From: Argopecten irradians
Taxonomy: Eukaryota > Mollusca > Bivalvia > Pectinida > Pectinidae
Assembly: GCF_041381155.1 (NCBI RefSeq)
Contig: NC_091137.1
Span: 12,395,765 to 12,459,764 of the forward strand
Length of the DNA stretch: 64,000 nt
Direction of reading: 5' to 3'
Within the stretch, counting starts at the first letter, position 1. Each line of letters opens with the position of its first letter. Positions 1-42,288 of this stretch are shown piece after piece. The position numbers and the translations under genes are program-made. The notes beneath the pieces were generated by a model, which did no database searches, was not told where the DNA came from, and saw only the letters and a list, made by a program, of their open reading frames with translations.

Positions 1-3000
1 GGAATCCAGTGACACATAATACCTGGGACAATGGACGCTATATCACATATGAAATCGCTATCAAAGTAAGTTAGTTTGAAATAAAGTATTTCTTTGTTCT
101 ACAATGGAAATGTGGATTTCGTTTGTGTATGTTGAGGATTTGTGTTTTTGTAGTCTTTGATGTAACTTAACTCGACCTGCCTTTGATGTAACTTAACTCG
201 ACCTGCCTCAGGGAGAGAAGATCCCATTTTATTTTATTTGAAATAAAATTTTGTTGAAATTGAAATTGACCTGCCTCTTTAGTAAACTCATTCAGCCCTT
301 ATGAAGATACCGGTACGTTTAGTCTTTCGAAATCAAACATTAGTTATAAACTTTTAGGGATGAATGAATTCATTAAGGTGTGTTAGTTGAAGTTTGGAAA
401 ATTAAATGAAGATGCCATCAATCTAACATATTTGTTAAATGCATGTACCAGACCTAATTGAGTTTCTGTAGTGATCTCATTATATGTTTCAGATATAGGT
501 GTAGTAAAGGCTGTTTCAGTTGAGAATGTCTTATATGTGTTTTCAGACTTCAAACCGTGCATTTAGCTTGCCTGAATCTCTTACCCGGAGACGATATTCA
601 GAATTTGAATGGCTGAGAAAAAGATTGCGTCGTCACCACCCCTTACTGTAAGTGAAGTCAAACGCTCGGTGCCTTTATTTCAAGTCGCACCTTAGTATGT
701 ACTGTACATCAAACTTATAACCAACAACCTCAATAAGTTCAGTAACTGTACCAAATAAACCACAGATGTCAACTCTGTAGATGAAAGTAATCAAGTACCG
801 CTGTCTGAAAATGATAACATGTCATATTTTAAACCTTTTGTGTCACTGGGTATACATGAGTTGACTGATTAGGTTCACATCCTATAGTCTTAACAGCCAG
901 GGGTCGATGTCCAGTTTAATGTGTTGCATGTGTCAAAGTGCATGTTTTGGGAGGCTGCAGTAAGTTATTTTGTGACTCTTTGTAATATATGTGTATAAAT
1001 GATTACTTTATACCTTAAAACAGATAGATTATAAAATCATTTTCGTTTGGAGGAATATTAAGGTTGTTTAAGACAGAAGGTCTTAGATTTCAGAAGGTCT
1101 TTGAACTCAGAAGGTTGCTAAAGCAATTTTGACTGTACATAAACTTTTGCTTATGCGTAGTTGGTTATTTGAATGTAACATTTCAATTGTAGGAAACCAC
1201 CAACACTGCCACCAAAGAAATTTTTCGGAGATCGGTTTGATACAGATTTTGTAGCTTTTAGAATGAAGGGTCTGGAGAAATTCCTCATCAAGTAAGTCAA
1301 GCTTATGTGTCTGATGTCTTTGTCTTTTATATTTGATCGAAATAACTGAAGGTCAAGCTGTTCATGGCTGAATATGTTGTCTGTTATATTTGACTAGGTT
1401 ACTATAGGTCAAGCTTATATGTCTGATGTTGTGGTTTCTAACATTTGATCTAGGCTACTGTAGTTCAAGCTTATATGTCTGATGTTGTGGTCTCTAACAT
1501 TTGATCTAGGCTACTGGAGGTCAAGCTTATATGTCTGATGTTGTGGTCTCTAACATTTGATCTAGGCAACTATAGGTCAAGCTTATATGTCTGATGTTGT
1601 GGTCTCTAACATTTGATCTAGGCTACTGGAGGTCAAGCTTATATGTCTGATGTTGTGGTCTCTAACATTTGATCTAGGCTACTGGAGGTCAAGATGTTCA
1701 TGTCTGATGTTGTGGTCTCTAACATTTGATCTAGGTTACTATAGGTCAAGCTTATATGTCTGATGTTGTGGTCTCTAACATTTGATCTAGGCAACTATAG
1801 GTCAAGCTTATATGTCTGATGTTGTGGTCTCTAACATTTGATCTAGGCTACTGGAGGTCAAGCTTATATGTCTGATGTTGTGGTCTCTAACATTTGATCT
1901 AGGCTACTGGAGGTCAAGATGTTCATGTCTGATGTTGTGGTCTCTAACATTTGATCTAGGTTACTATAGGTCAAGCTTATATGTCTGATATTGTGGTTTC
2001 TAACATTTGATCTAGGCTACTGTAGGTCAAGCTTATATGACTGATGTTGTGGTCTCTTACATTTGATCTAGGTTACTGGAGGTCAAGCTGTTCATATCTG
2101 ATGTTGTGGATTCTTATATTTGATCTAGGTCACAGGAGGTCAAGCTGTTCATATCTGATGTTGTTGTCTCTTACATTTGATCTAGGTTACTGTAGGTCAA
2201 GCTGTTCATGTCTGATGTTGTTGTCTCTTACATTTGATCTAGGGTACTGTAGGTCAAGCTGTTCATGTCTGATATTGTGATCTCTAACATTTGATCTAGG
2301 TTACTGGAGGTCAAGCTGTTCATGTCTGATGTTGTTGTCTCTTACATTTGATCTAGGGTACTGTAGGTCAAGCTGTTCATGTCTGATATTGTGATCTCTT
2401 ATATTTGATCTAGGTCACAGGAGGTCAAGCTGTTCATATCTGATGTTGTTGTCTCTTACATTTGATCTAGGGTACTGTAGGTCAAGCTGTTCATGTCTGA
2501 TGTTGTTGTCTCTTACATTTGATCTAGGGTACTGTAGGTCAAGCTGTTCATGTCTGATATTGTGATCTCTAACATTTGATCTAGGTTACTGGAGGTCAAG
2601 CTGTTCATGTCTGATGTTGTTGTCTCTTACATTTGATCTAGGCTACTGTAGGTCAGGCTGTTCATGTCTGATGTTGTGGTCTCTAACATTTGATCTAGGT
2701 TACTGGAGGTCAAGCTGTTCATGTCTGATGTTGTTGTCTCTTACATTTGATCTAGGCTACTGGAGGTCAAGATGTTCATGTCTGATGTTGTGGTCTCTTA
2801 CATTTGATCTAGGCTACTGGAGGTCAAGCTGTTCATGTGTGATGTTGTTGTCTCTAACATTTGATCTAGGCTACTTTAGGTCAAGCTTATATGTCTGATG
2901 TTGTTGTCTCTTACATTTGATCTAGGCTACTGTAGGTCAAGCTGTTCATGTCTGATGTTGTTGTCTCTTACATTTGATCTAGGCTACTGGAGGTCAAGAT

Positions 3001-6000
3001 GTTCATGTCTGATGTTGTGGTCTCTTACATTTGATCTAGGCTACTGGAGGTCAAGATGTTCATGTCTGATGTTGTGGTCTCTTACATTTGATCTAGGCTA
3101 CTGGAGGTCAAGCTGTTCATGTGTGATGTTGTTGTCTCTAACATTTGATCTAGGCTACTTTAGGTCAAGCTTATATGTCTGATGTTGTTGTCTCTTACAT
3201 TTGATCTAGGCTACTGGAGGTCAAGATGTTCATGTCTGATGTTGTGGTCTCTAACATTTGATCTAGGTTACTGGAGGTCAAGCTGTTCATGTCTGATGTT
3301 GTTGTCTCTTACATTTGATCTAGGCTACTGGAGGTCAAGATGTTCATGTCTGATGTTGTGGTCTCTTACATTTGATCTAGGTTACTGGAGGTCAAGCTGT
3401 TCATGTCTGATGTTGTTGTCTTTAACATTTGATCTAGGCTACTGTAGGGCAGGCTGTTCATGTCTGATGTTGTGGTCTCTAACATTTGATCTAGGTTACT
3501 GGAGGTCAAGCCGTTCATGTCTGATGTTGTGGTCTCTAACATTTGATCTAGGTTACTATAGGTCAAGCTGTTCATGTCTGATGTTGTTGTCTCTTACATT
3601 TGATCTAGGCTACTGGAGGTCAAGATGTTCATGTCTGATGTTGTGGTCTCTTACATTTGATCTAGGCTACTGGAGGTCAAGCTGTTCATGTCTGATGTTG
3701 TTGTCTTTAACATTTGATCTAGGCTACTGTAGGGCAGGCTGTTCATGTCTGATGTTGTGGTCTCTAACATTTGATCTAGGTTACTGGAGGTCAAGCCGTT
3801 CATGTCTGATGTTGTGGTCTCTTACATTTGATCTAGGCTACTGGAGGTCAAGATGTTCATGTCTGATGTTGTGGTCTCCTACATTTTAACTAGGCTATTG
3901 GAGGTCAAGATGTTCATGTCTGATGTTATTGTCTCTAACATTTGATCTAGGTTACTGGAGGTCAAACTGTTCATGTCTGATGTTGTTGTCTCTTACATTT
4001 GATCTAGGCTACTGGAGGTCAAGATGTTCATGTCTGATGTTGTGGTCTCTTACATTTGATCTAGGCTACTGGAGGTCAAGATGTTCATGTCTGATGTTGT
4101 GGTCTCTTACATTTGATCTAGGCTACTGGAGGTCAAGTGTTCATGTTGATGTTGTTGTCTCTTACATTTGATCTAGGTACTGAGGTCAAGCTGTTCATGT
4201 CTGATGTTGTTGTCTCTTACATTTGATGATACTAGGTCAAGTGTTCATTCTGAGGTCTACATTTGATCTAGGTACTGAGGTCAAGCTGTTCATGTCTGAT
4301 GTTGTTGTCTCTTACATTTGATCTAGGCTACTGGAGGTCAAGATGTTCATGTCTGATGTTGTGTGGTCTCTAACATTTGATCTAGGTTACTGGAGGTCAA
4401 GCTGTTCATGTCTGATGTTGTTGTCTCTTACATTTGATCTAGGCTACTGGAGGTCAAGATGTTCATGTCTGATGTTGTGGTCTCTTACATTTGATCTAGG
4501 CTACTGGAGGTCAAGCTGTTCATGTCTGATGTTGTTGTCTTTAACATTTGATCTAGGCTACTGTAGGGCAGGCTGTTCATGTCTGATGTTGTGTGGTCTC
4601 TAACATTTGATCTAGGTTACTGGAGGTCAAGCTGTTCATGTCTGATGTTGTGGTCTCTTACATTTGATCTAGGCTACTGGAGGTCAAGATGTTCATGTCT
4701 GATGTTGTGGTCTCTTACATTTGATCTAGGCTACTGGAGGTCAAGATGTTCATGTCTGATGTTTTGTCTCTAACATTTGATCTAGGCTACTGGAGGTCAA
4801 GATGTTCATGTCTGATGTTGTGGTCTCTTACATTTGATCTAGGCTACTGGAGGTCAAGCTGTTCATGTCTGATGTTGTTGTCTCTAACATTTGATCTAGG
4901 TTACTGGAGGTCAAGCTGTTCATGTCTGATGTTGTTGTCTCTTACATTTGATCTAGGCTACTGGAGGTCAAGATGTTCATGTCTGATGTTGTGGTCTCTT
5001 ACATTTGATCTAGGTTACTGGAGGTCAAGCTGTTCATGTCTGATGTTGTTGTCTCTTACATTTGATCTAGGCTACTGGAGGTCAAGATGTTCATGTCTGA
5101 TGTTGTGGTCTCTTACATTTGATCTAGGCTACTGGAGGTCAAGCTGTTCATGTCTGATGTTGTTGTCTTTAACATTTGATCTAGGTACTGGAGGTCAAGT
5201 GTTCATGTCTGATGTTGTGGTCTCTTACATTTGATCTAGGCTACTGGAGGTCAAGCTGTTCATGTCTGATGTTGTGGTCTCTAACATTTGATCTAGGTTA
5301 CTGGAGGTCAAGCGTTCATGTCTGATGTTGTGGTCTCTTACATTTGATCTAGGCTACTGGAGGTCAATGTTCATGTCTGAGTCTCTTACATTTGATCTAG
5401 GCTACTGGAGGTCAAGATGTTCATGTCTGATGTTGTGGTCTCTTACATTTGATCTAGGCTACTGGAGGTCAAGATGTCCATGTCTGATGTTGTGGTCTCT
5501 TACATTTGATCTAGGCTACTGGAGGTCAAGCTGTTCATGTGTGATGTTGTTGTCTCTAACATTTGATCTAGGCTACTTTAGGTCAAGCTTATATGTCTGA
5601 TGTTGTTGTCTCTTACATTTGATCTAGGCTACTGGAGGTCAAGATGTTCATGTCTGATGTTGTGGTCTCTAACATTTGATCTAGGTTACTGGAGGTCAAG
5701 CTGTTCATGTCTGATGTTGTTGTCTCTTACATTTGATCTAGGCTACTGGAGGTCAAGATGTTCATGTCTGATGTTGTGGTCTCTTACATTTGATCTAGGC
5801 TACTGGAGGTCAAGCTGTTCATGTCTGATGTTGTTGTCTTTAACATTTGATCTAGGCTACTGTAGGGCAGGCTGTTCATGTCTGATGTTGTGGTCTCTAA
5901 CATTTGATCTAGGTTACTGGAGGTCAAGCCGTTCATGTCTGATGTTGTGGTCTCTTAGATTTGATCTAGGCTACTGGAGGTCAAGATGTTCATGTCTGAT

Positions 6001-7936
6001 GTTGTGGTCTCTTACATTTGATCTAGGCTATTGGAGGTCAAGATGTTCATGTCTGATGTTATTGTCTCTAACATTTGATCTAGGTTACTGGAGGTCAAGC
6101 TGTTCATGTCTGATGTTGTTGTCTCTTACATTTGATCTAGGCTACTGGAGGTCAAGATGTTCATGTCTGATGTTGTGGTCTCTAACATTTGATCTAGGTT
6201 ACTGGAGGTCAAGCTGTTCATGTCTGATGTTGTTGTCTCTTACATTTGATCTAGGCTACTGGAGGTCAAGATGTTCATGTCTGATGTTGTGGTCTCTTAC
6301 ATTTGATCTAGGCTACTGGAGGTCAAGCTGTTCATGTCTGATGTTGTTGTCTTTAACATTTGATCTAGGCTACTGTAGGGCAGGCTGTTCATGTCTGATG
6401 TTGTGGTCTCTAACATTTGATCTAGGTTACTGGAGGTCAAGCCGTTCATGTCTGATGTTGTGGTCTCTTACATTTGATCTAGGCTACTGGAGGTCAAGAT
6501 GTTCATGTCTGATGTTGTGGTCTCTTACATTTGATCTAGGCTATTGGAGGTCAAGATGTTCATGTCTGATGTTATTGTCTCTAACATTTGATCTAGGTTA
6601 CTGGAGGTCAAACTGTTCATGTCTGATGTTGTTGTCTCTTACATTTGATCTAGGCTACTGGAGGTCAAGATGTTCATGTCTGATGTTGTGGTCTCTTACA
6701 TTTGATCTAGGCTACTGGAGGTCAAGCTGTTCATGTCTGATGTTTAGTCTCTTACATTTGATCTAGGCTACTGGAGGTCAAGATGTTCATGTCTGACGCC
6801 CTACTTCACCTGTTCATACAATCAGACCTCACCATCAAGGATATTGATGATGTGATGGACGGTAAAATGGCCCCTGATGTGATAGAACACATATGGCAGA
6901 GTGGAGGCATTAAAGAAAACTGCAGGTATGCCAAAGGTCATGGTGTATGAAAGGCTCTCCCATTCAATAGTTTTCTTTAGTAAATCATAATCATAGAGTG
7001 TCACTTCAAAAGTCACATGTTTGATCATACACACTGTCGTTCAACAAATATATTGATTCATTATTCAAAAATCGTTAGTTTGACGAAGTATCAGGCTCTA
7101 TGTGTGTCATTGAAATTGACCGTATATATACAGTATGCATTTTGATAGTTGACTTACAAAAATACAAAAAAAAAGGATTTCTGTTATACAGATTTCCAGA
7201 GCAAATCTTCACATAGAACATTAGAAATGTTTATTGTATAATTATAAGATTCTGTCATCTGGTATTATTTTATATAAATTTTATCCAATTTTCTACTGAA
7301 AATTGTATTGACAGAGACTTCAACAAAAATGCAGTACTGGAGCCCAAACCTGATACAGCACCATTGGACGTGTCAGCAGAGGATCATAGCAGCACGTCAA
7401 GCGAGAGTAGTGTGGACTGTTTTACTGACAGCTCTTCGGTGACGGAGGAAGAATTTGGTTCATTTCCTCCCCTGTCTGTAGTAATCACTGCCAGAGATTC
7501 TCCTACAAGTCTGGCAACAAACATTACAGGGGAATCATCACAATGGAAGGACAGTCAAAATAATATAGATCCTGAGGTGTTAGTAGATAGTGCTGATAAT
7601 ATGGAAACAAAGCGTCTCAAGGCAAAATGTGATGAAAATAAGGGAACAGATTCTGATATTGAAGTGTTAAGTAATACAATGGAAAGTGACAGTGAGTATG
7701 AAATGGCAAGTGAACAGACTACACATTGTATAAAAGGGTCAGTTAGCCAAAAGTCTGGAGTTAGCTCAAAGTCAGGAGTTAGCCCAAAGTTAGGAGTTAG
7801 CCCAAAGTCTGGAGTTAGCCCAAAGTTAGGAGTTAGCCCAAAGTCTGGGGTTAGCCCTAAGTCAGGGACAGATACTAAACAGTCTGACTTGAACTACGCA
7901 ATGGGCTTTAGCATTAATGGTGATGTATCTAATTGA
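1..7936 (+). CDS. SNX10: Sorting nexin 10/11-like PX-domain protein (3' five exons, 5' end outside window)
   Basis: Exons 1-65 (partial), 547-647, 1193-1291, 6767-6925 and 7315-7936 join in frame with GT-AG borders into about 347 residues ending at TGA 7934-7936. The PX domain shows the basic RRRYSEFEWL motif, the PPKKFF loop and GLEKFLIK, then DALLHLFIQSDL. The stretch from GLEKFL to FIQSDL aligns without gaps to vertebrate SNX10. In the family, PX domains of this type bind PI3P, and SNX10 works on endosomes and V-ATPase trafficking; that role here is inferred from homology. The tail after the PX domain is long, acidic and serine-rich, so the protein is clearly longer than vertebrate SNX10 (about 200 residues). 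It includes seven copies of a GVSPKS-like hexapeptide. SNX11 is equally possible because one invertebrate gene precedes the vertebrate SNX10/SNX11 split. No start codon is visible. Confidence 0.88.
66..546 (+). other. Intron 1 of the SNX10-like gene
   Basis: Donor GTAAGT follows the AAA codon at 63-65; the acceptor TTTTCAG ends at 546. Positions 157-211 hold a short direct repeat (TTTGATGTAACTTAACTCG twice). No coding or RNA signal was seen. Confidence 0.8.
648..1192 (+). other. Intron 2 of the SNX10-like gene
   Basis: Donor GTAAGT at 648 and acceptor TTGTAG ending at 1192. It is AT-rich and nothing else recognisable was seen. Confidence 0.8.
1333..6766 (+). repeat. 57-bp minisatellite made of copies of the intron 3/exon 4 splice-acceptor junction
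   Basis: About 95 tandem units fill almost all of intron 3 of the SNX10-like gene. Most are 57 bp; an early subset (1.4-2.0 kb) has 56-bp variants with CTTATATG in place of TGTTCATG. Each unit contains TTTGATCTAG|GCTACTGG followed by GTCAAGATGTTCATGTCTGA, which is exactly the acceptor and first codons of exon 4 (LLEVKMFMSD). The last unit is the real junction at 6766/6767. Many units also have CTAAC a few bases before the AG, a possible branch point. Because 57 is divisible by three, long stop-free frames run through the array. They are not in the exon frame and are not believed to encode protein. A degraded patch lies at about 4130-4270. Blocks of several units recur (about 3130-3890 against 5550-6480), indicating higher-order duplication. 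Confidence 0.95.
6926..7314 (+). other. Intron 4 of the SNX10-like gene
   Basis: Donor GTATGC after TGCAG, acceptor TTGACAG ending at 7314. It is AT-rich with a short A-run near 7160; no other feature seen. Confidence 0.8.
7740..7867 (+). repeat. 18-bp coding repeat in the last exon of the SNX10-like gene
   Basis: Seven in-frame units encode variants of the hexapeptide GVSPKS (S/P/Q and S/L alternating). The nucleotide units are nearly identical (AGTTAGCCCAAAG plus TCTGG or TTAGG), so expansion was recent. Serines next to proline and lysine would suit phosphorylation, but no function can be assigned. Confidence 0.85.
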
Positions 7937-20918: not shown

Positions 20919-21650
20919 ATATTGTTTTTTTTTTCTTAATTAGACAAATATATACAATTAAACACCAATTATTGTTAAATGACGAGTATTATTTATGCTT
21001 TGTGACTGTCAGCAATGGAGCATCTTTAATCATTACCAGATATATTATACATGTACATATACATGTATATACCCCCAGTAAACTAGGAATCTGAAGCATA
21101 TAAAACTATGGGAAAGGTGGTGTTCAAGCTAATGTTAAAAATCCCACAACCCATTAAGTTTCTTGAAACTTTGTTGATTGAAAGGACTACTAGTTGTTCC
21201 GTTAAAATGACACTACTTTTTCCTTTTGTGATTTTAAAAAGGCCTATTGGGCTGGAATTCTTTGTAGTCATTACATACATATTTATCCAGTTTATGATTC
21301 CAGGGCCATATGGGTTATCATATGGGGTATACTGAATTAGATAATAACAGTTTTAGATACATTGTTGTCATTGTTACAAAATAAAAAAAAACTGATTGGT
21401 CAAAATTAAGATCGAGCCTTTAAGGTGCTGGTATTATTTTTAGATTTATACATATTTTATTTGAAAATCAAATGTAACTCTGTTTTTCTCTTTAATCATT
21501 TTTTGATTTAATTTAAAAATATAGTTTTTATCTACATAGGAGAGATAATCTTAATTTGTATCTTGAGTTTAAGTTGGTGACGAAAATATATTTCTTTCTC
21601 ATAATTATTTGATTTCTGATATTAAAAAAGAAACTACTTGTTTTACCCTA
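20919..21650. other. AT-rich DNA before the duplicated segment
   Basis: No supported gene. Opposite-strand stop-free stretches at 21083-21335 are short and without recognisable similarity. Confidence 0.45.
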
Positions 21651-22560
21651 GAGCATATCTAGTTGTTAGGCTTATTTATACTGTTAGGGAAAATTCAAGA
21701 ATACAAATGCAATAATTTAAGAGTACATATGTTAGTTTACAAAAAATTCTATCACTAACTGTTGTTTTATTATGGTGTCTATGATCAATTTTGAATTTAC
21801 AGTTGTTTAGGGCAAATATTGATTTTTTTAGAAAATTCCCATCCCTACATTTAAGCCCATGACATGCTATTTTCCCAGATTTCAATTTGAAAAAGTATGT
21901 GTTATAAGATTATACCTATAGCATGTTTTTAAAAAGGTTTAAAAAGTGTGGATAAAATCAGTAACATGCAAAATATATTTCGAGCAAACCCAATATCCTT
22001 AATTTTTATCCTGACAAAAAATAAGATTTTGTTTTGCTTTTAAATCAATTTGTAGTAAAAATGATGAGTAAATATCATTATAAATGGAAATAAAATAAAG
22101 AAGGAAGTATCTTTATTAACAAAAATAATTTAAAAAAATGAAAAATATGTTCAAAAAGGGACACAAGGGGTCCTCTTGCCAGGTACTCAAAGTATTTTCA
22201 GAAAAAAATATATTTTAGGCCCTTAATTATTAAATGTCTTTACAAAGCATACAAAATAGATAAAAAGTTCATAAAAATATTTTATGTAACACTTTAACAC
22301 TGCAAAATTTGAAAAAAAAAATTGATGCTTTGGTGGATTTTGCTACCCGACATTTAGTCACAAACTTGAAAAAAAGGTTGCCATTTTTGGTTGGGAAGGG
22401 GATCCTATATTGGCCTTATGATATAGGCCCTGTATTGGCCTTTGTATAAATGTGCATTTCTTGGTTGTCTGTCTTTGTATATTACAAATGCATTATTTAC
22501 AAATACAGAATAGCACTTGATTGTCTCCATTGTCACTACCTAACATGTTATATGTTTCAG
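20938..22560 (+). other. AT-rich upstream region of the repeat-protein gene, ending in a strong splice acceptor
   Basis: The last bases TTATATGTTTCAG form a good acceptor at 22559-22560, suggesting that the exon holding the repeat-protein frame starts at 22561. No TATA-plus-initiator arrangement stands out closer to the start codon. Confidence 0.45.
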
Positions 22561-22841
22561 ATTATCGACTCTCCACAGTTGGGGTATAACCATGTTGAAT
22601 GCCAGTCCTATGCCATCTTTCTACCATCTTTAAAATCAGGGAATCATCTGAGAATTAGGCATGATTAGACCGGGGATTGATTAGAAAGAATCAGTTTGGA
22701 CAGTTTAGCGACAAGTCTGGTTTAGGTATATCGTAACTTCTGTAAAGGGATCTCATTCAGTGTTTACTTTGAAATCCGTGAAGTTCAACTTATGAAGTTT
22801 TTATTTGTGTATTAATTACACCAATATCTGTGATTTTCAAC

Positions 22842-23972
22842 ATGGAGATTGAATTAGATTCTGTGGGATCTGGTGATCAGATGGTAGCTGACATTGAAGA
22901 TGTCGCCCTGGAGGACGAGTTGGAATATAGTCGTGCGATGTACCTGGAGGAGATTGTAGAAACGTCGGAGTACAGTCGCCATATAAATGAAGAGGAAGAG
23001 GTTAAGCCATTTGATTATGATACAATGGGTGTCATTGAGGAGATTGAAATCCCTCCACATGAATATAGTAAGACTATGTATGAGGAAACACAAACAGAAC
23101 CATGGCCGTTTACTGGAGCAATGGAAGAGATCACAACTCACGAACCTTACGAATATGAAAAAGCTATAGAGGACAAGATACAGACTATCAATTTCGATTA
23201 CTCAAAACCAATGTATTATGAAGAGCAATCAAACGTGACTGAACACAGTCGTGGTATGAATTTAGTCACGGACGTACAGCCATTTGAGTATAGCAATGAA
23301 CTATATCATGATTCAGAGGTTGAAAATTTTGAATACAGTCAAACTATGTACAAGGAAACAGAAGTGAAGACAATCGAGTATGAAAATGGGATGCTTGAGG
23401 AGAGTACAACTGAAAAGAGGGATTATAGTAAAAGTATGGATGATCGCGGCATCAGTGACGTGAGCGAGTACCGCAGAGGATTCCGTGACCTCAAACAGAC
23501 TACTGTGACTGAGTACACAAGGGGGATGTATGATGAAGGCGAGAGTAATGTACACGAATACGAGTCCGGCATGCGTATCGTGTCTAAGGAAGAACCAAAG
23601 GAATATAGCAAAGGCATGGAAAAGATTGAAGCTCCTGAAATCAGGGAATACAGTAATGGAATGGATGAAGAAACTGACATACCATTACATGAACATACGC
23701 GAGGGGTCAAAGTCGTGACTAAAAGTGACTCGCCAATTCTACACAGTCGTTTTGTGTATCAGAAGTCAGATGGGCAAGCATTCAAACACAGCTACACCTT
23801 ATTCGAAAAATCAAAGGGTGAACGGATAAAACACAGTTTAGGTATCAAGATAAAGACTGAGGAACCACCCTTTGAATATTCAAGGGCAGTTTGGGAGTTA
23901 TTAGATACCGAGCCTCTCACTCACGACATGCCGCTCAGTAATATTGCTGGTTATGAAGAATCTAATAACTAA
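22842..23972 (+). CDS. Acidic protein of about 22 tandem 15-residue repeats, copy 1
   Basis: A 376-residue frame in one exon. ATG 22842 is chosen because the frame between it and the upstream TTTCAG acceptor (22560) has no better start; the leader would be about 280 bases. Almost the whole protein is a 15-residue repeat, consensus (D/E)-Y-S-+-x-M-Y-x-E-x-x-x-x-x-F/h, for example EYSKTMYEETQTEPW, EYSNGMDEETDIPLH, DYSKPMYYEEQSNVT. The last copies shift to HS in place of YS (HSRFVYQKS, HSYTLFEKS, HSLGIKIKT). It is strongly acidic, with no signal peptide, membrane segment or cysteines. Units are diverged at DNA level, unlike the nearby minisatellites, so the repeat is old and under protein-level constraint. 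I do not recognise the family. A regular repeat with alternating hydrophobic and charged residues could form a solenoid or be a linear-motif array. Poly(A) signal AATAAA at 24067 supports a real transcript. Confidence 0.8.
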   Translation: MEIELDSVGSGDQMVADIEDVALEDELEYSRAMYLEEIVETSEYSRHINEEEEVKPFDYDTMGVIEEIEIPPHEYSKTMYEETQTEPWPFTGAMEEITTHEPYEYEKAIEDKIQTINFDYSKPMYYEEQSNVTEHSRGMNLVTDVQPFEYSNELYHDSEVENFEYSQTMYKETEVKTIEYENGMLEESTTEKRDYSKSMDDRGISDVSEYRRGFRDLKQTTVTEYTRGMYDEGESNVHEYESGMRIVSKEEPKEYSKGMEKIEAPEIREYSNGMDEETDIPLHEHTRGVKVVTKSDSPILHSRFVYQKSDGQAFKHSYTLFEKSKGERIKHSLGIKIKTEEPPFEYSRAVWELLDTEPLTHDMPLSNIAGYEESNN

Positions 23973-24066
23973 ATTGGTAGCTATGCTAGTTTTATTATAG
24001 TTTGTAAGTCAACTAGACTGTGTGATTGATTTACCTTGGTGTAATTGCACTCAATACCATTTTATC

Positions 24067-24072
24067 AATAAA
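24067..24072 (+). terminator. Poly(A) signal AATAAA of the repeat-protein gene, copy 1
   Basis: AATAAA about 95 bases after the stop, followed by GT/T-rich sequence (ATGTTCTAGTTTGT). Confidence 0.6.
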
Positions 24073-24079
24073 AAGTAAA

Positions 24080-25280
24080 TATGTTCTAGTTTGTAATTTA
24101 GGTAGATTGCATTGAATGACTAGTTGAGTGGCAATGATTGCATATTTGTATAGATGTATGTTCAATATCTACATAATTAAGGGCCTTATGACTATAAACT
24201 TACACTTTTCAACTTATTTCTAGTTTTTACCTGATATTTAAAGGTAACTAATTATATAATGATGAGTATTATCTATTTCTTATATTTGTACTTTGATATC
24301 ATGTACATGTAGTTTCTTTTATATTTCAACACTGTTATGTTAATGTAGTATTGTAAAAGCATTTTTTCTGTCTTTTTAACAAGTTAATTTTACTATATAT
24401 AACTACCTGGTACTAAAACTTTTTATTGTATCGTATTACCATGCTGTATCTTAAATGATTGAAGTTCAAAATCAGAAGGCAGTGCAATTTATAAAAATGT
24501 GTTTCATTGAATTATATATTTACAAAAGTGTATGTAATTAGAATATAATTTATAGCATAATTTTATTATACCAGGGTAATTAAGCTAGGTATTAGCTTAG
24601 ATATGTTACATGTTTTGCTCAAATTGAAATCAGAATAGTTAGAGGATTAGGTATGTTCTGATAGCTTTAATCCCACCTATAAATAAGATCATTCACAGTG
24701 CCAGTATCCTCCTTAATTACTCCTTCATCAGTTTAATTTATCCTTATATATTGCTATCTGCAGACCATCCTATTGTTGTAGAGTTATTTCCCTTTGTATC
24801 ACTCAGTATACAGCCGTCATCAGACCCACAGTTGATCACAGAGCTATGTGATCAGCCGTGGCCCATGCATATCCAATAATGAGCTACAGCTCATTACCAG
24901 ATTATCAATACTGATGACTTGTGTTCTATATACATTGTATACATGTATACACATTTCCCAAGTTAAAATAGTATAAAATACAAATCGTATTTGACTAAGT
25001 TTCTTTGCATTTGTTAGTTAATGTTGGCATTAGATACACAGATTATACTTGTTTCAAATGTTTTGTTTTGTTGGACAACATTTACTTTTGAAATTCTATT
25101 TGATGATACAATCTATTTATTCTTTAATTACTTATGCTACATATCAATTAGTTTAGATGTTTTTTTGTTTAGCTGACTACCTACACTACATCTTACCATA
25201 TTTATATGGGCACTTGAATAATTAATAAATTATAAGAACACTATGTGTTTCAATGATTTCAGGTAAGGTGCTAATAATTA
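24080..25280. other. AT-rich 3' flank of the repeat-protein gene, copy 1
   Basis: No gene or repeat recognised. The corresponding region in copy 2 is 37285-38485 and is almost identical. Confidence 0.6.
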
Positions 25281-25369
25281 ATTTGTTGCAGACGTTGTTG
25301 TCCATTTCTTTGTTGAAATTGATTACAGATATCGTTCTGTATTCTATATGTTGAAATTGTTGTTTTTGG

Positions 25370-26240
25370 TTACAGACATTTTATTGTTTCATTGGTTACA
25401 GACATTGTTCTGTGTTTCATTGGTTACAGACATTGTTCTGTGTTTCATTGGTTACAGACATTGTTCTGTGTTTCATTGGTTACAGACATTGTTCTGTGTT
25501 TCATTGGTTACAGACATTGTTCTTGTGTCATTGGTTAGACAGACATTGTTCTGTGTTTTCATTGGTTACAGACATGTTGTTCATTGGTCAGATTGTTCTG
25601 TGTTCATTGGTTACAGACATTATTCTGTGTTTCATTGGTTACAGACATTGTTCTGTGTTTCATTGGTTACAGACATTGTTCTGTGTTTCATTGGTTACAG
25701 ACATTGTTCTGTGTTTCATTGGTTACAGATGTTCTGTGTTCATTGGTGTTCTGTGTGTTTCATTGGTTACAGACATTGTTCTGTGTTTCATTGGTTACAG
25801 ACATTGTTCTGTGTTTCATTGGTTACAGACATTGTTCTGTGTTTCATTGGTTACAGACATTGTTCTGTGTTTCATTGGTTACAGACATTGTTCTGTGTTT
25901 CATTGGTTACAGACATTGTTCTGTGTTCATTGGTTACAGACATTGTTCTGTGTTTCATTGGTTACAGACATTTTTGTGTTTCATTGGTTACAGACTTGTT
26001 TCTGTGACATTGGTTACAGACATTGTTCTGTGTTTCATTGGTTACAGACATTGTTCTCTGTTTCATTGGTTACAGACATTATTCTGTGTTTCATTGGTTA
26101 CAGACATTGTTCTGTGTTTCATTGGTTACAGACATTGTTCTGTGTGTCATTAGTTACAGTCATTGTTCTGTGTTTCATTAGTTACAGTCATTGTTCTGTG
26201 TTTCATTAGTTACAGACATTGTTCTGTATTCAATTGGTTA
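25370..26240 (+). repeat. 28-bp minisatellite, type 1 (CATTGG type), copy 1
   Basis: About 31 units with core TTTCATTGGTTACAGACATT followed by GTTCTGTG. Because 28 is not a multiple of three and the unit lacks stops in all three forward phases, long overlapping frames (FHWLQTLF, CVSLVTDI, IGYRHCSV) appear in every forward phase. They are arithmetic artefacts and not proteins. Irregular shortened units lie at 25520-25600 and 25725-25760. Confidence 0.95.
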
Positions 26241-26389
26241 TTTGACATGGACATTTTTCTGTGTCATTCTGTGGCTACATATATATTGTCCTAAATTTAA
26301 TTGGTTGGAAAAGTTATAAGCAGCTAATGCTGAACTGGTTGCAGACAAACTTAATCCTTGTTATTTGGTAATTGATTTTATGATTACAG

Positions 26390-27165
26390 ACACTCTGTAT
26401 GTGATTAGTTTCAGATATTGTTTTGTATGTAATTAGCTACAGATATTGTTCTGTATGTAATTAGTTTCAGATATTGTTCTGCATGTAATCAGTTACAGAT
26501 ATTGATCTGTATGTATTTGGTTACAGATATTGTTCTGTATGTAATTAGTTACAGATATTGTTCTGTATGTAACTAGTTACAGATATTGTTTTGTATGTAA
26601 TTAGCTACAGATATTGTTTTGTAAGTAATTAGTTACAGATATTGTTCTTTATATGATTAGTTACAGATATTGCTCTGTATGTAATAAGTTACAGATATTG
26701 TTCTGTATGTAATTAGTTACAGATATTCTTCTGTAAGTAATTAGTTACAAATATTGTTCTGTATGTGATTAGTAACAGATAGTGTTCTGTGTGTAATTAG
26801 TTACATATACTGTTCTGTATGTAATTAGTTACAGATATTGTTCTGTATGTAATTAGTTACAGATATTGTTCTGTATGTGATTAGTAACAGATAGTGTTCT
26901 GTATGTAATTAGTTACATATGCTGTTCTGTATGTAATTAGTTACAGATATTGTTCTGTATGTAATTAGTTACAGATATTGTTTTGTATGTAATTATCTAC
27001 AGATATCGTTTTGTATGTAATTAGCAACAGATATCGTTCTGTAAGTAATTGATTACAGATATTGTTCTGTATATGATTAGTTACAGATGGTGTTATGTAT
27101 ATAATAAGTTACAGATATTGTTTTGTATGTAATTAGCTACAGATATTGTTCTGTATGTATATATA
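26390..27165 (+). repeat. 28-bp minisatellite, type 2 (AATTAG type), copy 1
   Basis: About 27 units with core GTAATTAGTTACAGATATTG and TTCTGTAT. It is the same length and alignable base for base with type 1, so the two arrays share an ancestor. It ends in a TATA run at 27160-27177. Confidence 0.93.
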
Positions 27166-27176
27166 TATATATATAT

Positions 27177-27836
27177 ACTTAAACTTTTAAAAGACGTTGT
27201 GCATCAGTAGATATTAAGAAAAAAATATATCAACACGGCATTCCTTTGCATCAGTAGATATTAATATATATATATATATAAGTAAAAAAGAGCCATGTCC
27301 ATGTGATGGTTTCCATATACATAAAAAGAAAACACAACTATAAAACAGTTTTTTCCTCCCTAGCGCTTTCTCGGCTCATGCCGGTCTTCAGGGGTTTGAA
27401 TTCTTTTATTTGTAAAACATGACGTCATAGTACAATGACGTCATAGTAAGATTACGTCATGACATGGTACATAAAGATATTGTGAATGGTTCTGGAAGAA
27501 ACTAACAAAAACATGAGGACAAAATAAAAACTAATATGAAGTTCCTTTGTCCCGTTCTGAATTTAACACAGGGTTTCATATATAAGTTGAATGAAATTAC
27601 ATTTCTTTATTTTCTCTTTTTAAAAGATCTGAATTAGACATTTGATATATTGGTGAAATAAAAAAGTTATCATTAGCACACATATGACAATGTTCGTTTA
27701 CTGTTAAATATCTGAGATGGTCTGTTTTGGTTTGTTGTCTGTGTAATGTTACTCTCTTTCTCAATTCCATTCCTGTCTGACCAATATAAAAATCTGAGCT
27801 TTTGCTACAAATAAGTGCGTAGTAAGTAAGTAAATA
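27177..27836 (-). mobile_element. Penelope-like element fragment, copy 1
   Basis: Minus-strand fragment with the C-terminal GIY-YIG endonuclease region at its 5' side (about 27836-27550). Next come an untranslated stretch with three TGACGTCA-type repeats (27420-27460), the hammerhead-like motif, and a duplicated GCATCAGTAGATATTAA stretch between TA runs. The reverse transcriptase part is missing. It corresponds to 41963-42615 in the second duplicate. Confidence 0.65.
27358..27394 (-). ncRNA. Hammerhead-ribozyme-like motif of the Penelope-like element, copy 1
   Basis: On the minus strand, CCC-CTGAAGA, a hairpin CGGC-ATGA-GCCG, GAAA, then GCGCTA-GGG. This matches the hammerhead order: stem I strand, CUGA-N-GA, stem II, GAAA, very short stem III and UA cleavage site, with CCC/GGG closing stem I. 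A C/A mismatch at the base of stem II is against full activity. Hammerhead motifs are known in Penelope-like elements, often with minimal stem III. Confidence 0.45.
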
Positions 27837-27839
27837 TAT

Positions 27840-28489
27840 ATGTATATGTCATTAGTTACAGATACTGTTCTCTGTTTGCTATAGTTACAAATGCTGTATT
27901 CATATTGTAATTTGATACTTTAGTTTAAAGATTCTAAAACGTTGTGGGTACTGTTGATTAGTCCTACCTTCCAATGATTGTAATGTCATCTTTTGATATG
28001 AATTTAGTGACGTCATATAATAAACAAAAAGTTGGATGGTAATTTTACTTTACCCACATCAAATCAGGATCTTGAAAAACAATCATATATTGGTTGTGTG
28101 TGCATCAAGTTTAAATTATTGATGTCTTATTCAAACTGGCTACAAATGTTCTATGTTATAAAAAATGCATGTGTATGGTATGTGCATGCCATTTACATTT
28201 AATTGGTTACAGAAGTTGTATAATTGGTAATTGACATCCTATTTAAATTAATAACAGATATATGATGTGTGTTAGATTAGTATAGATGCTGTGATGGTCA
28301 AGGCCTAATTACAAGGTGGTCTAATATTTTACCACTTATCCTTGACCTCTGTGTTGCAAGGTAGAAACCTGTGAATGACATGTACATGTACTGACTGTGG
28401 TTTGGTGGATTGTTTCTAGCAACCCTGACTTTTCTCCACCTTTTTAACCTGACACATCCTTAAATGATCCCAGCTGTTTAATGGTTGCT
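27840..28489. other. Spacer between Penelope fragment and 25-bp array, copy 1
   Basis: Contains a few degenerate array-like units (GTCATTAGTTACAGATACTG near 27848) and otherwise unique AT-rich DNA. No gene. Confidence 0.5.
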
Positions 28490-30085
28490 GATGTTCTGTA
28501 TTAATTTGTTGCTGACGTTCTGTATTAATTTGTTACTGATGTTCTGTATTTGATTGGTTAATGACGCTCTGTGTTTGATTGGTAAATGACGTTTAGTATA
28601 TGATTGGTTACTGACGTTCTGTGTTTTATTGATTACTGACGTTTTGTGTTTGATTGGTTACTGATGTTCTGTGTTTGATTTGTTACTGATGACGTTTTGT
28701 GTTTGATTGGTTATTGACATCCTGTGTTTGATTGGTTACTGACATTCTGTGTTTGATTGGTTACTGACATTTTGTGTTTGATTGGTTTCTGACGTTCTGT
28801 GTTTGATAGGTTACTGATGTTCTGTGTTTGATAGGTTACTGACGTTGTGTGTTTGATTGGTTACTGACATTTTGTGTTTGATTGGTTACTGATGTTCTGT
28901 GTTAATTTGTTAGTTGTTACTGACGTTCTGTGTTTGATAGGTTACTGACGTTTTGTGTTTGATTGGTTCTGACGTTCTGTGTTTGATAGGTTACTGACGT
29001 TTTGTGTTTGATTGGTTCTGACGTTCTGTGTTTGATAGGTTACTGACGTTTTGTGTTTGATTGGTTTCTGACGTTCTGTGTTTGATAGCTTACTGATGTT
29101 CTGTGTTTGATAGGTTACTGACGTTGTGTGTTTGATTGGTTCTGACGTTCTGTGTTTGATAGGTTACTGACGTTCTGTGTTTGATAGCTTACTGATGTTC
29201 TGTGTTTGATAGGTTACTGACGTTGTGTGTTTGATTGGTTCTGACGTTCTGTGTTTGATAGGTTACTGAAATTCTGTGTTTGATTGGTTACTGACGTTCT
29301 GTGTTGGATTGGGTACCGACGTTCTGTGTTTGATTGGTTACTGACGTTTTGTGTTTGATTGGTTACTGACGTTTTGTGTTTGATTGGTTACTGATGTTCT
29401 GTGTTTGATTGGTTACTGATGTTCTGTGTTTGATTTGTAACTGAGTGACGTTCTGTGTTTGATTTGTTACTGACGTTCTGTGTTAATTTGATACTGATGA
29501 CGTTTTGTGTTTGATTGATTATTGACATCCTGTGTTTGATTGGTTACTGACATTCTGTGTTTGATTGGTTACTGACATTTTGTGTTTGATTGGTTGCTGA
29601 CATTCTGTGTTTGATTGGTTACTGACATTCTGTGTTTGATTGGTTACTGATATTTTGTGTTTGATTGGTTACTGATGTTCTGTGTTTGATTTGTTACTGA
29701 CGTTCTGTGTTTGATTTGATACTGATGACGTTTTGTGTTTGATTGGTTATTGACATCCTGTGTTTGATTGGTTACTGACATTCTGTGTTTGATTGGTTAC
29801 TGACATTTTGTGTTTGATTGGTTACTAATGTTCTGTGTTAATTTGTTACTGATGTTCTGTATTTGATAGGTTACTGACGTTTTGTGTTTGATTGGTTTCT
29901 GATGTTCTGTGTTTGATTGGTTACTGACGTTCTGTGTTTGATTGGTTTTAAATACTGACGTTCTGTGTTTGATTGGTTACTGGCATTCTGTGTTTGATTT
30001 GTTACTGATGTTTTGTGTTTAGTTGGTTACTGATGTTCTGTGTATTATTGGCTAGAGATGTTTTGATTGGTTACTGAAGTCTGTG
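28490..30085 (+). repeat. 25-bp minisatellite (GATTGGTTACTGACG type), copy 1
   Basis: About 60 units with core TTTGATTGGTTACTGACGTT and CTGTG, alignable to the 28-bp types with three bases fewer. Variants: GATAGGTTAC, TGATGACG insertions, GATTTGTTAC. Most units carry ATTGG (an inverted CCAAT box) about 7 bases from TGACGT (a CRE half-site). Confidence 0.95.
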
Positions 30086-30095
30086 TACAATTGGA

Positions 30096-31783
30096 TTTTA
30101 GGTCACCTGAGACAAAGTCTCAAGTGACCTTTTCTAATCGTCTTTTGTCCGTCGCGCCCGTCCTATGTCCGTAAACAATTTCTCAAAAAGTAATGAAGGG
30201 ATCTTTCTCAAATTTCATATACAGGTTCCCCTAGGACTCTAGTTGTGCATATTGCATTTTGGGACCGATCGGTCAACAAGATGGCCGACAGGCGGCCATC
30301 TTGGATTTTGATAGGTAAAGTTTGTTACCGCCATTTCTCAAAAAGTAATGAAGGGATCTTTCTCAAAATTTCATATGTAGGTTCCCCTAGGACCCTAGTT
30401 GTGCATATTGCATTTTGGGACCGATCGGTCAACAAGATGGCCGACAGGCGGCCATCTTGGATTTTGATTGTTAAAGTTTGTTACCGCTATTTCTCAAAAA
30501 GTGCTAAAGGGATCTTTCTCAAATTTCATACACAGGTTCCCCTAGGACTCTAGTTGTGCATGTTGTATTTTGGGACCGATCGGTAAACAAGATGACCAAC
30601 CGACGGCCATTTTGGATTTTGATAGCTGAAGTTTGTTATCGCTATTTCTCAGAAAGTACTGAAGGGATCTTTCTCAAATTCCATGCATAGTTTCCCCTTG
30701 TACCCTAGTTTTGCATAGTACCTGCATAGGACTGATCCATAATGCCTTTTGGGACTGATCAGTAAACAAGATGGCCAACCGGCCGCCATCTTAGATTTCA
30801 TTGTTGAAGTTTGTTACCACTTTTTCTTAGAAAGTACTATATATAGCGATCTGTCTCAAATTTTATATGCAGTGAGTTTGAAAAAGTTAGAAAAGCAAGG
30901 AAAAGATCCCTCTTTCCATTGTCAGACATAGATCATTCTTTGGTGGGCGCCAAGATCCCTCTGGGATCTCTTGTTTTGTAATAGGAAATGAGTCAAGTAT
31001 TGTCAGAATTATCAGTATAAGATGGCCATTGAATCTGTTTTTCAAATTTTCCATGACTGACCCCCAGGGGCCTTAGGGCGGGGTCAAATGAGGTCAAATA
31101 CGCTAAAACTTCAAAAATCTTCCTCTGAAGTTCTGGAAAAGGTAGAATCATATACTCTTCATAGATGGAAAGATCGTAAGGTCTTTTACAAAATATGTGA
31201 ATTATATGACCCTGGGGTCTCACATTTCCCCCCTGGGGGCAGAGGGGTTGCCATGGGGCCAAAAGGGACAAATAGGCTAAAACTTTAAAAATCTTCTTTT
31301 AAATTCTGGAAATGGTAGAATCAAATACTCTTTATAGATGGAAAGGTCTTAAGGTGTTTTATGAAGTGTGAACTATATGACCCTGGGGTCTCACGTTTCC
31401 CCTTGGGGAGGGGGTCAAGTTTACTTTAGTTTATGTATAAAAAACACATTTATGAACATTATTTGCTCAATTTTCATAGGAAATGAGTCAAACAATATAA
31501 GAATTATTAGCCTGATATATAGTATTTTAACATCCATATTAGTCCTCGTTGACCTCCTTGGGGACTAGAGGGGCGGGCCCAAGCAGAGTCAAAATGACTT
31601 AAAATTTCAAAAAATCTTCCGAGTTCACAGGTTTGATGGAAGCAAATACTCTTCATAATTTAAAAAGTTAAATTTATTAAATTACTGACCGACTTCAAGG
31701 GCCAGTATATTAGTGTTTTCATGTCTTTGTTTCATTCTATATCCGAACTCAGGTGACCGTTAAGGCCCATGGGCTTCTTGTTT
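30096..31783 (+). mobile_element. Helitron-like element, family C, copy C1, carrying an internal family B remnant
   Basis: 5' end TTTTAGGTCACCTGAGAC with stem AGGTCACCTGAGAC / GTCTCAAGTGACCT, TTTTGTCCGTCGCGCC and GTCCGTAAAC. The 3' end is CTCAGGTGACCGTTAAGGCC, a GCCCATGGGC hairpin and TTCTTGTTT. Its own monomers of about 170 bp (ATGACCCTGGGGTCTCAC) lie at 30985-31600. Compared with C2 it has lost the sequence between GTAAACAATT and the middle of the nested B element. Confidence 0.7.
30179..30976 (+). mobile_element. Family B element remnant nested in C1 (B4)
   Basis: Family B monomers (AAGATGGCCG...CGGCCATCTTGG) begin abruptly after GTAAACAATT and run to the intact B 3' end (GGGCGCCAAGATCCC, CTCTTGTTT). 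The B 5' hairpin is absent here but present in B5. Confidence 0.75.
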
Positions 31784-34700
31784 ATATTCTGTTCAGCTGG
31801 GTTGATACGTTTTATTCTGAAATCTACCACATTACTTCTGTGGATGTAATTTGGCTTTTTTTTAGAATAAGGGAGCAATATGAGTATCCTATACACTATA
31901 TCATGTACCCCACCATTATTGACTTCAGTCATGATTTCTATGTTTTAGTAGAGTGAATTAATGCACCAATTTCAGAGTTTAATTAAACATTCAGGTTTTG
32001 GTTGTGATATCTTTTACAACATTTGTTATAAAATGTACAAATGTTCATACCTTAAACATTTTATAGTCTACAGTTAGCTATCATTTGAAAGTTCCTTTTC
32101 AACTCAACTTCGTTATGAAACGGTTAGACTACACATTGATTGGTTACAGACGTTGTGTGTTTGATTGGTAAGGCTACACATTGATTGACTTTGCTACAAT
32201 CGAATATAAATCCTAGGTTGAACCATTTCTATAAAGGTTTGTATCTTTTTGTTGGACATGATAAATTCACTGCGAGAGGAGTTGCCAACGGAATCTAGTC
32301 AACATGTCAGCACTTGTGTTCAACAGATCAGGATACAAGATAAAATACTATCATGAAAATGCCGTAAACTTTTAGAACTTGCTAGTTAAATTCTTGTATT
32401 TCGTTTTCTGTGTACATACTGTTTGACCAGGAAAAACATGTGGACACTGCAGGTCTGAGGTGCCTTTTGTATTTTACAGAATTTTCATGTCCTTTTGTTG
32501 TACTAGAATTTTCTTCATTAGATAACAATGCATGCTATATGTTATTTATTATGTATACTCAATACCGTCTGAAATTAAATTACTTGACTGTGAGGAGGTT
32601 TAAGTTGAATTTTTAGTAAAGATTTGAATCCTTAGTGACTTAACAATCAGCTGATTGATCCAGCCTAATTGTATTGTAATATTTGATATTTAATTAGCAA
32701 TCAAATGTACTTTTAATGTAAATGTATCGGTGATATACTCAGGTGATATTTTGAGTACTCTAAACATTTATCTTTATCCTATATACACCACTTAAAAATA
32801 ATAAATTCAATCCATAATAGTTATATGAGTCTTTCTTTTATATGTATATAAAAAATACTGTTTATTTAATTGAATAACATATCACATATAGTTACATGAA
32901 GACTTATTGCTCATAGTGGAATGCAACTGTAAATGATAAGGGGAGAGTACAGTCACTAAATGCCAAGTCCTCATCATTCAAGGTTGATAGTCCATTTCTA
33001 ATATTAGCTATCGACAGAACTTAATATTGAAAGATTTAAGCTCCTGTGACTTTGAACAAAGGTCAAGGTTGTTTATGTGAGCAAACTTTTTTAGCTCTTC
33101 ATCCCAGCTAGCTACAGCCACATTATCACGTCCCCAGGCTGCTAGGTTGTTTCTGACAAGAAATTCTCAAACAATTTTAGCCTTTTTCACTGCCATGGCT
33201 TTGAATGACAAGGTTGTTTATAAGAACAAACTTGGTAGCTCTTCATTGCAGCAAACTAAAGTCACAATATCAGGTCTACAGCTATTTTTCTGTTGTTACA
33301 CTGAATGAAGGTCAAAGGTATTCTGTTTAAATTTTTAGAACAAATTAATTGGTTTGCCCTTCATCCCAGCATGCCATGGGCCTTATATCAGGTCTTTGAG
33401 AAGTTGTTAAAAAGGGAAGATTTGATGTCAAATGGACGGATTTCTTATCACGGCATGAGATCACATAGTCTTTCAGCAGGTGACCAAAAACAGAAGTTAT
33501 AACAAAAATGAAGATTCTATTTCATTTTATTATATACTTATACACTATACATCAAATATCACAGTTGTCAATGATAGGGTGAATGGCCTACATTTACATT
33601 TTCATGATTCTCAAAAGACACATAATTAGCCAGCTTCCTGCTGTTCCTCTGGACCCAGTTAGGGCATATCTTATCCTCATACCATATCTTCTGTTAGTAC
33701 TTTACATGACTATTTTCTAATAGGGAATTTGAGCAAATGCATGAAAGCAATTTGGTAGTGCAAATTTTCAACTTGTTTGTGTTGTAAATCGAAACCATGG
33801 ATAATGTGCAAAATTGAAATGGAGAATTATTTGTGAAATTATCAGCAAACAGATGTAGCTTACCTATCGTATTCACAAAAATTTAACCTATATAAAAATA
33901 ACCATGTAAACAGTATGTATATCAATTCTACCGTGCAGATATATATAGTATATATGTATACAGTGTATCGCTCTTATTATGCTTACAACATATCAGTCAC
34001 TTAAGCTCCAACACGGCAGGGAACTGCTCTAAATTTCAAATTAACCATAGTTCCTGCTGCTTACTTAGCACATGATCTGCCGTGATGAACCTAATCATTA
34101 ATACATGTAGTACATGGTATACATATCACACCAATCTACACTTACTAACTATACCATCTTAATTCTTATCCAACAACAAACATCTGTGACTTAGTGATCA
34201 CAAACAATTTCACCTCGTCTACGAAAATCACAAATAGTTCATCCCTCATAGGTGATAATACAGATAGATTTTGAAATTAACATACTTTACATATTAAATG
34301 AAGATATTTTATCACTCTGGAATATTCCTTTCAATGAAAGAGATTGAAGCTAAAACTGAAAGTAAAATGCAGCAAACAAACCCAAAATTTACACAAAAAT
34401 CACAAATGAAATTAAGATAAATATAGACATATAAATTAATTGTTACTCTGTCTCAGCGATTTGTCATCACCTTGTCCTGATTTCACTGGAAAGTATCACT
34501 TGTATTACTATTAGTAATATTCTTAGTAAACAAACAACAGTTATGTAAATACTTCCTGGTAAACAATTACCAGTAACGTAGATACTTCCTGACTACCTTT
34601 TACAATGTACAATTTACAAGTTTTCAATTATGAGTCACATGCTAATTTATAGTGTTAAAACTATTTTTGAAATTAAAGCCAAACTGGAAATCAGATTGAT

Positions 34701-34861: not shown

Positions 34862-36046
34862 GAGAGCATATCTAGTAGTATCTAGGCTTATTTATACTGT
34901 TAGGGAAAATTCAAGAATACAAATGCAATAATTTAAGAGTACATATGTTAGTTTACAAAAAATTCTATCACTAACTGTTGTTTTATTATGGTGTCTATGA
35001 TCAATTTTGAATTTACAGTTGTTTAGGGCAAATATTGATTTTTTTTAGAAAATTCCCATCCCTACATTTAAGCCCATGACATGCTTTTTTCCCAGATTTC
35101 AATTTGAAAAAGTATGTGTTATAAGATTATACCTATAGCATGTTTTTAAAATGGTTTAAAAAGTGTGGATAAAATCAGTAACGTGCAAAATATATTTCGA
35201 GCAAACCCAATATCCTTAATTTTTATCCTGACCAAAATAAGATTTTGTTTTGCTTTTAAATCAATTTGTAGTAAAAATGATGAGTAAATATCAAAATAAA
35301 ATAAAGAAGGAAGTATCTTTATTAACAAAAATAATTTAAAAAAATGAGAAATATGTTCAAAAAGGGACACAAGGGGTCCTCTTGCCAGGTACTCAAAGTA
35401 TTTTCAGAAAAAAATATATTTTAGGCCCTTAATTATTAAATGTCTTTACAAAGCATACAAAATAGATAAAAAGTTCATAAAAATATTTTATGTAACACTT
35501 TAACACTGCAAAATTTGAAAAAAAAATTGATGCTTTGGTGGATTTTGCTACCCGACATTTAGTCACAAACTTGAAAAAAAGGTTGCCATTTTTGGTTGGG
35601 AAGGGGATCCTATATTGGCCTTATGATATAGGCCCTGTATTGGCCTTTGTATAAATGTGCATTTCTTGGTTGTCTGTCTTTGTATATTACAAATGCATTA
35701 TTTACAAATACAGAATAGCACTTGATTGTCTCCATTGTCACTACCTAACATGTTATATGTTTCAGATTATCGACTCTCCACAGTTGGGGTATAACCATGT
35801 TGAATGCCAGTCCTATGCCATCTTTCTACCATCTTTAAAATCAGGGAATCATCTGAGAATTAGGCATGATTAGACCGGGGATTGATTAGAAAGAATCAGT
35901 TTGGACAGTTTAGCGACAAGTCTGGTTTAGGTATATCGTAACTTCTGTAAAGGGATCTCATTCAGTGTTTACTTTGAAATCCGTGAAGTTCAACTTATGA
36001 AGTTTTTATTTGTGTATTAATTACACCAATATCTGTGATTTTCAAC

Positions 36047-37177: not shown

Positions 37178-37271
37178 ATTGGTAGCTATGCTAGTTTTAT
37201 TATAGTTTGTAAGTCAACTAGACTGTGTGATTGATTTACCTTGGTGTAATTGCACTCAATACCATTTTATC

Positions 37272-37277
37272 AATAAA
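37272..37277 (+). terminator. Poly(A) signal AATAAA of the repeat-protein gene, copy 2
   Basis: Same position relative to the stop codon as in copy 1. Confidence 0.6.
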
Positions 37278-37284
37278 AAGTAAA

Positions 37285-38485: not shown

Positions 38486-38559
38486 ATTTGTTGCAGACGT
38501 TGTTGTCCATTTCTTTGTTGAATTGATTACAGATATCGTTCTGTATTCTATATGTTGAA

Positions 38560-39695: not shown

Positions 39696-39819
39696 TTCTG
39701 TGTCATTCTGTGGCTACATAAGATATTGTCCTAAATTTAATTGGTTGGAAAAGTTATAAGCATTACAGCATTAACTGGTTGCAGTTACAGACATTATCCT
39801 TGTTATATTGGTACAGATA

Positions 39820-41020: not shown

Positions 41021-41169
41021 AATTGGTTATTTGACATGGACATTTTTCTGTGTCATTCTGTGGCTACATATATATTGTCCTAAATTTAATTGGTTGGAAA
41101 AGTTATAAGCAGCTAATGCTTAACTGGTTGCAGACAAACTTAATCCTTGTTATTTGGTAATTGATTTTA

Positions 41170-41962: not shown

Positions 41963-42144
41963 TACTTAAACTTTTAAAAGACGTTGTGCATCAGTAGATA
42001 TTAAGAAAAAAATATATCAACACGGCATTCCTTTGCATCAGTAGATATTAATATATATATATATATAAGTAAAAAAGAGCCATGTCCATGTGATGGTTTC
42101 CATATACATAAAAAGAAAACACAACTATAAAACAGTTTTTTCCT

Positions 42145-42181: not shown

Positions 42182-42288
42182 TTTGAATTCTTTTATTTGT
42201 AAAACATGACGTCATAGTACAATGACGTCATAGTAAGATTACGTCATGACATGGTACATAAAGATATTGTGAATGGTTCTGGAAGAAA

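Follow-up and report, generated by a model that had tools for sequence, protein, structure and literature searches.

The window analysed here, 64,000 nucleotides of Argopecten irradians contig NC_091137.1 (positions 12,395,765 to 12,459,764), contains an SNX10-like gene whose third intron is almost wholly covered by a tandem array of about 96 copies of the gene's own 3' splice junction, about 5.5 kb in size. This array is most likely a genuine, very large mirage, the name by which minisatellite-like duplications of intron-exon boundaries are known from amphioxus. The probability that it is a minisatellite born from the splice junction, now tolerated and nearly neutral, is put at about 0.8. Its tandem units span the exon-intron boundary and hold both an intron and an exon part, the copy at its edge is the authentic junction as judged by protein conservation and by the human intron position, and splice signals are kept in many copies, with an acceptor AG in 95 of 96 decoys. 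All positions given below are those of the window.

Gene structure and the exon 4 junction

Joined exons 1 to 4 encode a PX domain (Pfam PF00787, E = 1.3e-18), and the closest solved relatives of their product are SNX11 and SNX10. The joined-exon protein was aligned with human SNX10 (4on3) without a gap over 118 residues (query residues 12-129, offset 16). All exons lie on the plus strand. Exon 1 ends at 65, and exon 2 (547-647) was placed by the PX domain of the joined exons, with its splice sites read and its frame checked. Exon 3 (1193-1291), likewise gap-free with 4on3, ends in ...FLI-K in phase 2 and is followed by the donor CAA|GTAAGT at 1292. Intron 3 extends from 1292 to 6766, with the array running from its fifth base through its last. 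Exon 4 (6767-6925) is supported by the protein alignment, and its first 30 nucleotides (nt) form the exon half of the repeat unit, with 30/30 nt identical to the exact unit type. The last exon (7315-7936) carries an 18-base-pair (bp) coding repeat of GVSPKS-like sequence at 7741-7866.

The first three introns of the gene are located after codon 21, within codon 55 (phase 2), and within codon 88 (phase 2), corresponding through the offset of 16 to chain residues 37, 71, and 104 of 4on3. Splice variants of human SNX10 are reported at c.111, c.212, and c.311 by PMC8173195, the positions being read without their plus signs, which are lost in the text. They fall in the same codons and phases as the three introns of the SNX10-like gene. 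Chain residue numbers of 4on3 were equated with protein residue numbers for this comparison, an equation that the three-fold agreement of intron positions supports. Because intron 3 shares its codon and phase with the human intron, it predates the split of the two lineages. The gap-free alignment and the shared intron position together place the first base of exon 4 at 6767, which means that the junction gave rise to the array and not the array to the junction. Judged by position, intron 3 is old and the array arose later. Both the SNX10 identity and the real junction at 6767 had been proposed by an earlier annotation made from the letters of the window (the sequence-only reading), and both are borne out by the 4on3 alignment and the human intron.

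Under the Rogers model, tandem duplication of AGGT-bearing exon sequence would have given rise to the intron itself. The exon half of the unit does contain GGAG|GTCAAG, and the first half-unit of the array lies directly behind the donor. However, the model requires an intron site that is novel for the gene, whereas this intron is present in human SNX10 at the identical codon and phase, as are the two preceding ones. The end of exon 3 also shows no likeness to the unit, with 258 of 500 shuffles scoring as well. De novo gain by AGGT duplication is rejected on the intron position common with human SNX10 (c.311), and the model as a whole is barely credible for this locus.

Extent and anatomy of the array

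Tandem Repeats Finder (TRF) reported the array at 1308-6796 with a period of 57, 97.1 copies, and 90% matches. Its full extent is 1296-6796; it starts 4 nt into the donor, reaches 30 nt into exon 4, and includes a degenerate first half-unit directly behind the donor (1296-1338 on the plus strand, intron +5 to +47). This half-unit is identical to the 56-bp unit type at 37 of 43 positions, with an alignment score of 31 against a shuffle maximum of 18 (0 of 2000 shuffles as good). The intronic minisatellite of about 95 junction copies described by the sequence-only reading is thus real and slightly understated, 96 units preceding the authentic junction. The limits it gave, 1333-6925, are replaced by a start at 1296 and an end near 6796; position 6925 is the end of exon 4.

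Cutting the array at acceptor-like strings, which were picked after inspection of the array, gave 97 ends and 96 tandem units on the plus strand (1342-6766), 71 of them 57 bp long, 17 of 56 bp, and 8 of other lengths. In each unit, a 30-nt copy of the beginning of exon 4 precedes a copy of the 3' end of the intron. The consensus joins the exon-like GCTACTGGAGGTCAAGCTGTTCATGTCTGA (30 nt) to the intron-like TGTTGTGGTCTCTTACATTTGATCTAG (27 nt). An exon-like part exactly matching exon 4 occurs in 26 of the 96 upstream units; together with the retained acceptor AG, this upholds the proposal that the unit is a copy of the 3' splice junction. The last unit (6711-6766) ends in the authentic acceptor, ...ATCTAG|, and only the last copy continues into the real exon.

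Two other origins or roles of the units were considered and rejected. Stop-to-stop frames of up to 394 amino acids occur on the plus strand of the array, but they merely reflect unit repetition and do not represent a long coding sequence. A transposon origin found no second match to the unit by blastn at E up to 1, a search confined to the window.

Of the odd-length units, five are consecutive (4122-4385), another two fall within 5185-5400, and the eighth is at 4557, with many 1-nt deletions. These are probably consensus errors, and the copy number of the array is provisional. That the array as a whole is an assembly artefact, inflated or scrambled from a true locus of few copies, is improbable. 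The clustering of odd-length units at 4122-4385 and 5185-5400 would fit such an artefact, and the draft assembly of an amphioxus mirage is reported to look aberrantly assembled (PMC3087553). Against it stand the 46 distinct units and their partly higher-order arrangement, which do not resemble a simple assembly loop, as well as the presence of two further boundary arrays in the window.

Growth of the array

Mean pairwise identity among the units is 0.90, with 46 distinct sequences among the 96, and identical runs of up to five consecutive units recur at distant places of the array. Units of the first quarter resemble exon 4 least, with a mean of 0.83 as opposed to 0.91, 0.91, and 0.92 in the following quarters (Spearman coefficient along the array 0.42; its P value is unreliable, the units being related to each other). 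The 56-bp type resembles the start of the intron and is concentrated at the 5' side: of its 13 units, 10 belong to the first 13 of the array. This clustering and the low likeness of the first quarter fit unequal exchange with less homogenised ends. The array would have expanded by repeated unequal exchange or replication slippage between copies, and a short GTCAAG...TGTCTGA likeness between the start of the intron and exon 4 may have been the seed.

Decoy acceptors and splice-site choice

Decoys have not been purged from the array. The acceptor AG is lost only in the first decoy, which has AA, and 49 of the 96 decoys match the real acceptor at every one of the last 20 intron bases. Identity extends over -20 to +3 in 40 decoys and over -20 to +30 in 22 (the real site being subtracted). 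In this array, nature puts 3' splice-site choice to a stress test: local sequence alone cannot tell the used acceptor, because 40 upstream acceptors match it over -20 to +3. The last unit differs by a unique TGTTTAG, which places a second AG 19 nt before the authentic one; an extra AG in the last 30 nt occurs elsewhere in three other units (52, 72, and 82).

A branch-point-like CTAAC had been noted as frequent in the units. It is present in 33 of 96, but just some 13 nt ahead of the AG; the last unit has CTTAC in its place. The yUnAy-like CTGAT is the better-placed branch-point candidate, found in 89 of 96 units with its A 26-31 nt before the unit end (27 nt in 84 of these).

When exon 3 is joined to any decoy, an in-frame stop follows in 96 of 96 cases and none stays open. 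The earlier expectation that decoy use runs into a stop therefore stands for the whole array, while the TGA it named comes first for only 57 decoys; the stop is met sooner in 32 (in 23 of these because the fourth codon is TAG) and later in 7. Each of these stops lies at least 181 nt upstream of the exon 4 donor. Transcripts that used a decoy would, with stops so placed, be expected to undergo decay.

The last acceptor would be chosen through exon definition, as it alone is followed, at the distance of a normal exon (159 nt), by a good donor. The array would be tolerated because only this acceptor pairs with the exon 4 donor, and selection would keep just the last copy and the donor, leaving the rest of the array nearly neutral.

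Donor-like sites were scored with a vertebrate donor matrix. None of the 595 GTs in the array, which through repetition amount to about six sites per unit, scored as high as even the weakest of the gene's real donors (2.79-5.70); the best reached 1.80. Outside the array, 55 of 4053 GTs in the window attained that level, and about 5 would be expected for the array's length.

Several observations weigh against a tolerated mirage. The U1-pairing energy of the common GAG|GTCAAG is -5.8, within the span of the gene's four real donors (-5.6 to -7.2), all of which are surpassed by three GTs of the array (-7.7, -7.7, and -7.5). Some mis-splicing is likely, given 40 decoys with the same local sequence as the real acceptor, and it is from conservation that we infer the use of the last acceptor. 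The seed likeness between the start of the intron and exon 4 is weak, with 90 of 2000 shuffles as good.

On the array donors the matrix and the U1-pairing energy, the cruder measure, disagree. The matrix was given more weight because GAG|GTCAAG does not have the consensus bases at +3 and +5. The short poison exons predicted by the sequence-only reading need donors inside the array and are for this reason doubtful; by the donor matrix they are judged unlikely, though the U1 energy disagrees. Where a decoy was used, a 5'-extended exon 4 is more likely to result than a short cassette exon.

A regulatory role is unlikely. Here the decoy acceptors would act as competitors for the exon 3 donor or retain spliceosomes, and unproductive splicing or intron retention would lower SNX10 output with array length. 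The 40 decoys equal to the real site, the stop behind all 96, and the U1-pairing energies compatible with array donors are in keeping with this, and promotion of intron retention by a cryptic splice site is reported in another gene (PMC8706089). However, no good donor by matrix score is found among the array GTs, and comparable amphioxus arrays are reported without disturbed splicing (PMC3087553, PMC3902484). The earlier suggestion that SNX10 output is tuned by array length finds no support here, and the amphioxus reports speak against it as a general rule. Very unlikely, too, is a length-variable dial, in which the roughly 96 near-identical acceptors would sequester the exon 3 donor and the copy number of each allele would set the productive share of SNX10 mRNA, coupled with splice junctions being recurrent birthplaces of minisatellites in this lineage. 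If true, it would provide a general source of heritable splicing variation.

Comparison with known boundary minisatellites

In amphioxus, mirages were described in globin and Adh3 genes, with TnC and PGBD5 added by PMC3902484, and splicing was reported as undisturbed (PMC3087553, PMC3902484). According to these papers, the units of BflGb6 consist of an intron end and an exon start, as in the SNX10-like array, and those of BflGb9 are minisatellite-like copies of the 3' boundary of an exon. Splice signals are also retained there in many, but not all, copies, and an authentic copy can be distinguished. The SNX10-like array differs in size, with about 96 units compared to 6 and 3 in two haplotypes of BflGb6, and in taking up nearly the whole intron.

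The minisatellite of human IFI6 (6-16), described by Turri 1995 as cited in PMC4526556, also carries a splice site at an exon boundary in its units. These units carry donors, the downstream ones being reported as used in alternative transcripts, whereas the boundary copied in the SNX10-like array is an acceptor and none of its 595 GTs reaches the weakest real donor by the matrix, with the U1 energy disagreeing. In human duplicated genes, minisatellites at exon-intron boundaries likewise alter gene structure (PMC2812944). They average 4 units of 30 bp and may form novel introns, in contrast to the expansion of an old intron seen here. A literature search found such arrays otherwise described only in PMC2812944; subscription journals were mostly outside this search, and absence is not proven. 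Outside the two lancelet papers, the word "mirages" was met in the literature searched just in unrelated reference titles. The phenomenon is already known under this name, and what is unusual is the size of the array (about 96 copies, 5.5 kb) and the occurrence of three cases in 64 kb. G+C outside the arrays of the window is 33.5%; that of lancelets is about 41%.

Other boundary arrays and neighbouring genes

Two further boundary arrays were found on the minus strand of the window, apparently in one TAX1BP1-like gene, identified by a SKICH domain (E = 3e-7) and a match to 4nlh (E = 5.4e-16). We infer that both belong to this one gene, whose exon boundaries were set by visual reading and by open frames; homology supports only the SKICH exon. 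The donor-type array (61685-62346, its low end placed by eye) consists of copies of CAG|GTAATGGGCA in units of about 56 bp, with 7 exact occurrences of ACAGGTAATGGGCA, the real one included. Some of its units resemble short exons with both splice sites (TTACAGAG|CTTAAAGCTCGCCTGGAACAG|GTATTG), and these might be used as small coiled-coil exons. The acceptor-type array (58167-58496) holds copies of TTACTTGTGGATCTTGTAG|AAGTCAGAGAGCACATG at a spacing of 83-92 bp. Four exact 36-nt copies span the boundary, three decoys and a last, apparently authentic one, which enters an open coiled-coil-like exon from 58166 downwards.

Three boundary arrays of both kinds within 64 kb suggest a tendency of the genome rather than a peculiarity of SNX10; they also suggest that minisatellites may often originate at splice junctions, and in more than the few lancelet genes described. 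The window holds 29 merged arrays, of which most, including those of 28, 25, and 155/157 bp, lay outside the comparison with exons. A 31-bp array inside an intron (55658-56210) showed by eye no likeness to either exon edge. For a 20-nt piece of a neighbouring 155-bp repeat, viral contigs gave no exact match, none of five repeat strings occurs in the literature searched, and a tRNA search found none.

In the SKICH exon (62347-62573, minus strand), the frame shifts between ...VLEERLK, up to about which homology supports it, and a coiled-coil-like LKLMEEEKARLEQ end, reflecting either a sequence error or a real frameshift. A tandem segmental duplication was observed at about 21650-34600 and 34863-51503, its three largest pieces among the blastn matches listed being 93.3-97.6% identical. 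It carries two copies of a gene with a 396-amino-acid open reading frame and EYSRGM-like repeats, and the copies differ in array length, with 28-bp arrays of 1.8 vs 3.3 kb and 25-bp arrays of 1.6 vs 2.3 kb. The SNX10-like (1-7936) and TAX1BP1-like (53900-62573) genes lie about 50 kb apart; the human relatives of both are located on chromosome 7p15, and the neighbourhood may represent old synteny.

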